Shown here one piece after another: positions 50,563 through 52,572 of a stretch of 64,000 nt of DNA; within the stretch, counting starts at the first letter, position 1; each line of letters opens with the position of its first letter. The translations under genes were made by a program, and so were the position numbers. The notes below the pieces were generated by a model. That model was not told where the DNA came from. It saw only the letters and a program-made list of their open reading frames with translations, and did no database searches. The DNA lies in contig CALFBH010000095.1 of NCBI GenBank assembly GCA_937951615.1, forward strand, positions 1 through 64,000, written 5' to 3'. Origin of the DNA: an uncultured Saprospiraceae bacterium (GTDB lineage Bacteria > Bacteroidota > Bacteroidia > Chitinophagales > Saprospiraceae).

Positions 50563-52443
50563 TTATTCCCGCCTGCTAATTGTCACTCCCGAAGCATTAT
50601 CTCCTATTGACCATGTTTTGACTAAGCTTTTAGATTGGTCTATGCTTCTTGTGAATTCATCAACAAATAAATTTGGCATTTCTAAAATTATTGTAGCTGG
50701 ACTTGTACGTGCTAAGTAATTTAAGTCCTTCAGTAGCTCTTTTTGATGAGACATTATTTTCATTTCTACTCTTTTAAGATTAGGCTTATTCCTTAAAGCC
50801 TTGATGTTCTTTAGTCTCGTTAACCCTAGTTGAAATCGTAGCCCCCAACTTTATATTTTCACAGCCAGTAGTTTATGAAGTTTGATAGTTTGTATAGCAA
50901 ATTGTACAATTTTGCCGTTCGATTCGCCTACGGTTGAAACCGTAGGCTACCAGATAGGTCGTGTCTATGACACTTTGTAAAGCTGTCATTTTAATGGGCT
51001 GTTCAAGTCGCATAGCGACGAATGGTTTGGTAGCCAATGGTTTTAACCATGGGCGAGAGAGGAAGTGCAATTAGAAGTTGGGGGCTACATATTCAACTTG
51101 GGTTAAGGTATCTAATTGTACTTCTTCCAAAGTTTCGCCCATTTCAGGTAGAGTAGTCCAATTTATCTTTCCCGATTCGTACATGCCAATGATTCTAATG
51201 TTATTTAGAGAGGCAGGAATATTGAAGGATTGTAATTTAGGCGTAATATCAATGTAAAGTTCTTGTAGTTTTTTACAATTTTTCTTGGAAAGACTAATTT
51301 TTTTTAAATTCTCCAATTCACTCAGGCTAAAATATTCTAAGCCATCTGTTTTTCTAGTTGAAATTGATTTTATTTTAGGACTATTGCTTATGTCAATAGT
51401 TTTTAAAACAGGAAAATTTTTACTTTTGCAGGACAGATTATCATAAGGATAATCTTCGATATAGAATTCATCTAAAGCACGTAGTCTGCTGAAACGTATT
51501 GGAGGAATATGACCTTTCTCAATATCGGGATAGTCAATGGATAGACTCTTTAGTTTGGGTAGCTGTTTTAATCTTACCTGAAGCGATTTATCTGTAAAAT
51601 CCTCAACTTTAATAACTAAATTTTGAAGATTTGCACCTTTAATTATTGACGGGAAATCAGCAACCTTATTTGCACTTATAACCACCGACTGAATACTCCC
51701 CAATTCAAATAGTTCTGCTGGTATCTGCTTTAAATAATAGGTAATGACTTCAAAAGTATGCAGTTTATTAAGTCCAATAATAGTTTTAGGAATAAAATAA
51801 AAGTTCGGACTTTGAATTTCTATATGTTGTAATTCCTTATTTTTATGTATATTTTCTGGCAAATAGCATGTGCTAAGTTTGGCATATTTAAGCTCTCTTA
51901 AGCCTGCTAATACTTCTAATCCCTCACAATAAGGTGCTTTATATTTTTTCAGGGTATCTTGTAAGTCTGAAAAGGAATATTTTGAATATTATTACTTGAT
52001 GCTTTGTTTAATTCATAAAGTACACCTAAAGAATTATCCCTCATTATCAAAGTATCCAAATAAGACCACCCAGATAAGGAAGTTGGAAATCTATTTTGAC
52101 GATTGCTAACAAGATAAAGTACCTCAATACCAGGATTAGATATTTCTTCCATAAAATGTGTAGAAGAATTGGCTTCATATAAATTGCTCAAAAATAGTAC
52201 ACGTAATGTCTGTAAATCGTTAATATCTTTCGCACAAAGGCTGCTGTTTCCTCTATTAAGAATTCCAACAGATAAACTTTCAGCCCCACTATTTTTATAC
52301 TTTTTCAGGCACTCCTTCCATTTTTGGTCGTCTCCATTATATGAACAAGTGTGTTCAGTACGATGATACTGTCCAAAAATATTTTCTAAAGGTGTACTTA
52401 ATAATAAAAATATTATAATGTAGATTTTATATAGTTGCTTCAT
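50563..52443 (-). pseudogene. Secreted LRR protein gene, broken by a frameshift and an inserted element
   Basis: Three frames make one gene on the minus strand. Residues 1-164 (52443-51949) hold a signal peptide (ending ENIFGQ) and the first repeats (LQTLRVLFLSNLYEA). A one-base shift near 51960 (at CCTTTTCAGAC) moves the reading to a second frame that reads SDLQDTLKKYKAPYCEGLEV, then continues to 51071 with more LRRs (LKKISLSKKNCKKLQELYID). The element at 50824-51102 interrupts it after LDT. The last frame (to 50563) carries on in phase: LTRLKNIKALRNKPNLKRVE. Both breaks look like decay; the original protein would be about 530 residues. Confidence 0.8.
50824..51102. mobile_element. MITE-like element with TTAA target duplication
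   Basis: A 279-bp element flanked by TTAA on both sides (50820-50823 and 51103-51106). Terminal inverted repeats of 28 bp begin CCC(T/A)AGTTGAA and end GTAGCCCCCAACTT, with four mismatches. It encodes no transposase. Removing the element and one TTAA restores the LRR reading frame exactly (D-T-L-T-R-L-K). TTAA targets and CC ends suggest mobilisation by an IS1380/piggyBac-like transposase, which is inference. Inner inverted words (CGTAGGCTACC and GGTAGCC) add further structure. Confidence 0.85.
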
Positions 52444-52572
52444 GTCATTATGGTATTTGTAATATTAATTCACGATTTATAACAAAAGCCACGAATACAC
52501 GAATCATATTCGTGCATTCGTGGCTAAATTATTTTTCTATCGTCCATGGACTATCGACCATCGACCAAAAAT

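Follow-up and report, generated by a model that had tools for sequence, protein, structure and literature searches.

The window analysed here, a stretch of 64,000 nucleotides from an uncultured Saprospiraceae bacterium (hereafter the host), carries a gene of the LRR type that is interrupted by a 279-bp element between two copies of TTAA (Table 1). A preliminary description of the locus had reported the TTAA pair, 28-bp imperfect terminal repeats and the length of 279 bp, and all of them were indeed present at 50820-51106. The ends of the element, CCCTAGTTGAAATCGTAGCCCCCAAC and CCCAAGTTGAATATGTAGCCCCCAAC, form an imperfect inverted pair of 28 bp, while a repeat search of the element returned an inverted pair of 41 nt, including flanking bases, with 80% complementarity. 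At the right terminal inverted repeat (TIR), the 30 bases comprising TTAA and the end are the same as in other copies of the genome. As for the coding content, the list of open reading frames contained a 65-aa chance ORF alone and no transposase gene, in agreement with the previous statement that the element lacks a long ORF, and an Rfam search of the element gave nothing at the gathering cut-off. The element is a short, multi-copy TIR element with a 4-bp target duplication and a partner with matching ends in a congener, as is characteristic of MITEs. The initial MITE-like reading with insertion at TTAA was therefore upheld, but it was incomplete, since the element is a composite in which a second MITE (MITE-B) is nested inside the first (MITE-A).

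The central part of the interrupted gene matched several LRR models, with the best score at 34.6 bits and each score below the curated cut-off of its model. When 283 bp, consisting of the element and one TTAA, were removed (283 mod 3 = 1), the sequence ...EEVQLDTL was joined to TRLKNIKALRNKPNLKRV, and the joined frame remained open for 86 codons up to the stop, with the other two frames stopping after 0 and 11 codons. A second lesion, a frameshift located approximately at 51950-51990, lies close to a T run in the gene and may reflect either genuine pseudogene decay or an artefact of the assembly. Because this frameshift is independent of the insertion, excision of the element alone would not restore the whole gene. 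Thus, the proposal that excision restores the frame would hold for the local 86 codons but not beyond the second frameshift; similarly, the region 50563-52443 is an LRR-type gene hit by the element, but it is not otherwise one intact frame. When an ortholog with an empty site was sought in the relatives, just LRR-level matches of 21-36% were obtained, and since the gene has no ortholog among them, its own empty site is not directly demonstrable. Just beyond the start of the gene, at 52487-52525 of the window, we also observed an almost perfect inverted repeat of 18 bp, AGCCACGAATACACGAAT cat ATTCGTGCATTCGTGGCT. Its full pattern is unique in the genome, and it may thus be a terminator-like hairpin.

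Table 1. Positions of the inserted element, the parts of the interrupted gene and further MITE-B examples (positions in the window unless a locus is named)
Feature	Position	Strand	Remark
LRR-type gene, 3' part up to the stop codon	50563..50823	-	in frame with the upstream part after removal of the element and one TTAA
Left TTAA of the 4-bp target duplication	50820..50823	no strand	sequence reading and TSD statistics
MITE-A copy, complete, 279 bp	50824..51102	no strand	
Left TIR, diverged B-type end CCCTAGTTGAAATCGTAGCCCCCAACTT	50824..50851	+	
Surviving MITE-A arm	50852..50887	no strand	opposite arm deleted
MITE-B, nested second element	50888..51072	no strand	TIR GTGTGTATAACAAATTGCAC with 3 mismatches; far end lost
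Right TIR, A-type end CCCAAGTTGAATATGTAGCCCCCAACTT	51075..51102	-	
Right TTAA of the 4-bp target duplication	51103..51106	no strand	
LRR-type gene, segment 5' of the insertion	51107..51990	-	upper limit approximate, set by the frameshift
Start of the LRR-type gene, 164-aa ORF, signal-like N terminus	51949..52443	-	cut off from the rest by the independent frameshift
MITE-B family examples in the host	L011 1504-1703; L012 1501-1700; L165 197-379; L166 174-330		

Target duplication and distribution of the MITE-A family

The TTAA pair had been regarded as direct sequence evidence of insertion. However, since TTAA is self-complementary, so that its direct and inverted repeats are indistinguishable, TTAA on both sides is by itself no proof of a duplication, and the four bases might instead be the outermost bases of the inverted repeat itself, leaving the insertion without direct evidence. 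In the host and its congeners, we thus compared the flanks of 50 paired elements. As a result, identical flanking 4-mers were found in 29 of them, while identity over 5 bases was found in 0. Ten of the identical pairs were other than TTAA (CTAA twice, TTAG three times, and TAAA, TTAT, TTCA, TTGA and CAAA once each). Shuffling of the right flanks gave on average 15.2 identical and 1.8 non-TTAA identical pairs, and 0 of 20,000 shuffles reached 29 or 10. In favour of TTAA as a part of the repeat, two elements carried inverted non-palindromic flanks, but their number hardly departs from the shuffled mean of 1.7, and the non-TTAA 4-mers are direct in 10 cases versus inverted in 2, which makes this alternative highly improbable. 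The ten identical non-TTAA pairs indicate a target duplication of 4 bp, with TTAA as a preferred target that lies outside the inverted repeat; the wider target preference is C-TTAA-G. The direct evidence of insertion is thus provided by the 4-bp duplication and the ten non-TTAA direct pairs, whereas the TTAA pair alone was insufficient. A matching 4-mer was absent in 21 of the 50 paired elements, which could be mutated or recombined copies.

A search for the 28-bp terminus in the genome and its relatives revealed a multi-copy family throughout the genus. The 30-base pattern of TTAA and TIR occurred at 38 sites in the host genome when up to 3 mismatches were allowed, versus 0 for the reversed control. 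Among the 61 genomes searched, the ends were present in all six genomes of the genus including the host (16 + 24 in the host, 46 + 45, that is 91, in G005, 13 + 16 in G002, and 1 + 1, 1 + 1 and 2 + 1 in the other three congeners), with one weak match outside the genus. The host contains two end types, in which CCCAAGTTGA is followed by either TATGTAG or AATAGTAG, and the interiors of the MITEs differ between species. The 191-bp MITE-A copies are closely alike (188/191 identical), suggesting that some of the movement was recent. In addition, the ends of the host contigs C8, C33, C56, C64, C90, C105, C113 and C115 fall inside MITE copies, and assembly breaks thus hide a part of the family, possibly including nested inserts.

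Nested MITE-B and the history of the composite

The TIR of MITE-B, GTGTGTATAACAAATTGCAC, was detected at 30 + 32 sites in the host, versus 0 in the control, and its copies are accompanied by duplications of 8-9 bp (CTCAAATC, GATACGTAG, AAATTAAAT and ATTGAGTGA). MITE-B also stands alone elsewhere in the host with clean borders, and a search via single ends found no autonomous partner for it. MITE-B is located at the same place within MITE-A in several copies, and in the copy on contig C82, GTTTGATA is repeated on both sides of it, which points to one or a few entries of MITE-B into MITE-A. The composite A[B] then spread as a unit. The window copy shares the deletion junction CCAACTTCTAATTGCAC with the copy on contig C68, 253 of 275 aligned bases being identical, and both thus probably derive from one shortened composite. 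The whole window element can fold into a single long hairpin (z -9.9 and -11.0) with MITE-B as its core; such a long hairpin is expected for nested inverted repeats and does not imply a function.

Deeper nesting was observed in the copy on contig C4 (L051 2525-4277, corresponding to C4:33524-35276), in which a transposase gene of the IS110 family, an RNA-guided type, lies in the palindromic core of MITE-B, which in turn lies in MITE-A. This 1,745-bp copy was examined as a candidate autonomous element and rejected, as its gene encodes the nested IS110 transposase and its MITE-A arms are ordinary. Furthermore, MITE-A on the host contig C3 (L062 2242-2579) contains GTGTTCGACTAAAGTATG... with GTCAGACGAATTCG as a third kind of palindromic insert, and the MITE core in G005 and G002 is a TTGTCAGACGAAT/ATTCGTCTGACAA hairpin that resembles it.

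A partner insertion sequence and the probable mobilisation of MITE-A

The mobilising transposase had been described as unknown, but a likely one was found when full-length elements were sought. The congener G001, a Saprospiraceae metagenome-assembled genome (JAHDFX010000015.1), contains an insertion sequence (IS) of 1,934 bp with TTAA on both sides and ends that are the same as those of the MITEs, and a single ORF of 616 aa fills this element. The 616-aa transposase scored 219.5 bits against the NCBIfam IS1634 equivalog NF033559 (cut-off 100) and contains a DDE_Tnp_1 domain above the cut-off, while it gave 16.3 bits with the IS1380 model (cut-off 180); apart from IS1634 and this weak IS1380 match, no other NCBIfam models were matched. 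The IS breaks an ORF in G001, and joining of its flanks gives 264 codons; a homolog of this gene in another genus (G022), which itself contains stops, aligns across the point of insertion. IS701, which was suspected early from the 4-bp YTAR-like flanks, was dropped, since the partner transposase is of the IS1634 family. The G001-type transposase was absent from the 100%-complete host genome and from four other congeners, and G005 gave one remote match (25%). The MITE copies of the host thus look stranded, and with no autonomous copy in the host or the four other congeners, the link between the IS and the MITEs is drawn from the ends and the target alone.

Taken together, these results make it very probable that the window element is a non-autonomous MITE-A that transposed into a TTAA site of an LRR-type gene, with a DDE transposase of the IS1634 family mobilising it in trans. 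From the directly observed ends, flanks, 4-bp duplications and nesting, and from the full-length IS that a congener carries together with its transposase, we infer that such an enzyme acts in trans on these ends by cut-and-paste chemistry. The transposase would recognise the 25-28-bp ends CCCAAGTTGAAnnnGTAGCCCCCAA and make a 4-bp staggered cut, preferably at TTAA, to generate the 4-bp duplication. The interior of MITE-A is foreign, with only the ends in common with the full-length IS, and in this lineage MITE-B had entered it with an 8-bp duplication before the composite spread as one unit. The transposase would have been lost from the host, in which the copies are probably stranded.

The preliminary lead that a piggyBac-like or IS1380-family transposase moves the element was based on the TTAA target and the CCC ends, which do resemble those of piggyBac. 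However, the host genome contains no match to PF13701 (IS1380), the transposase found between the same ends in G001 belongs to IS1634 by the above scores, and the target duplications include CTAA, TTAG, TAAA, TTCA, TTGA and CAAA, unlike a strict TTAA, so that we consider this origin very unlikely. The strong interior hairpin (z -10 to -11) and the Y1 transposase genes in the genome could also point to REP/BIME-type palindromes spread by a REP-associated Y1 transposase, with the TTAA ends being incidental, but this is hardly credible, as a zone of about 1.5 kb around every Y1 gene is free of copies of the repeat, TIRs and 8-9 bp duplications of its own mark the interior repeat as a separate element, and the outer ends coincide exactly with those of the IS1634 element. 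This identity of the ends would also be compatible with the MITE as an internal-deletion copy of the G001 IS, instead of a chimera with a foreign interior. Such a deletion origin appears unlikely, however, because the likeness does not extend beyond the 25-33-bp TIR at either end and the interiors vary between species. The insertion of a chimeric MITE-A mobilised by an IS1634-family transposase is thus the reading that we adopt.

Comparison with known systems

The window element itself is real and represents an ordinary gene-breaking miniature transposon of a known kind, with the 4-bp TTAA preference and the nesting as its distinctive features. The MITE family now has a likely mobiliser and an order of nesting, and a part of the IS1634 family has 4-bp TTAA duplications instead of the recorded 5-6 bp. 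Remote IS1634 elements, with about 29-36% identity, were found in other genera, other families and a Segatella copri plasmid; their ends, such as CCCACATTGCA, CCCAACTTGCGCA or CCCAACTTGGC, read CCCA(A/C)(A/C)TTG, and their flanks are mostly TTAA or TTAG. In single copies inspected by eye, CAAG flanks a Sphingobium element, which also has the terminal sequence CCCAAGTTGAACA, on either side, and TCAAA likewise flanks a Mesorhizobium element whose ends are similar. These observations point to the short duplication as a trait of an IS1634 subgroup that includes distant Bacteroidota elements. None of the papers in the collection searched mentioned IS1634 and TTAA together in connection with insertion sequences. 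We tentatively entertain, as a possibility short of an even chance, that TTAA targeting of the piggyBac type, with a stagger of exactly 4 bp and possibly seamless excision, arose independently in a Bacteroidota clade of IS1634 transposases, and that the ends serve as shells for unrelated repeats, so that each species has had a nested hairpin element of its own swept through its genome. Clean excision at TTAA by the transposase, if it occurs, would make this enzyme a compact bacterial equivalent of piggyBac and a useful case for studying the evolution of target preference among DDE transposases.

PiggyBac elements target TTAA and have ends starting with CC; the present system differs from them in its bacterial IS1634 transposase and in TTAA being preferred but not obligatory. 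IS110-family elements of the IS621 type insert in repeated palindromes, and the IS110 transposase gene of the C4 copy likewise lies inside a nested palindromic repeat.

According to De Palmenaer et al. (2008, PMC2266710), the elements of the IS1634 family are 1,500-2,000 bp in length, have ends C-----YT and are flanked by AT-rich direct repeats of 5-6 bp, with duplications of 8-514 bp given for IS1549/IS1634. The partner IS agrees with this family in its length of 1,934 bp, in its ends CCCAAGTT, which fit C-----YT, and in its transposase above the cut-off with DDE_Tnp_1, whereas the duplication here is exactly 4 bp, with TTAA preferred, in contrast to the published 5-6 bp. Since the transposase agrees but the duplication length deviates, the partner is assigned to IS1634 by its transposase only. 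A 4-bp duplication is the family value of IS701 (PMC2266710) and matches ours, but the partner transposase does not belong to that family. Prokaryotic MITEs commonly have just their terminal repeats in common with the partner IS (Kamoun et al. 2013, PMC3852290), and known cases include an ISL3-type MITE in Microcystis (PMC11448079) and an IS982-derived MITE in Cardinium (PMC9769881). The present elements differ from these in that the partner is of the IS1634 family and a second MITE, nested in the first, makes up the interior, but they resemble all of them in being short, non-coding and multi-copy with IS-like ends, and the Microcystis MITE also in the matching duplication length and the insertion in genes.
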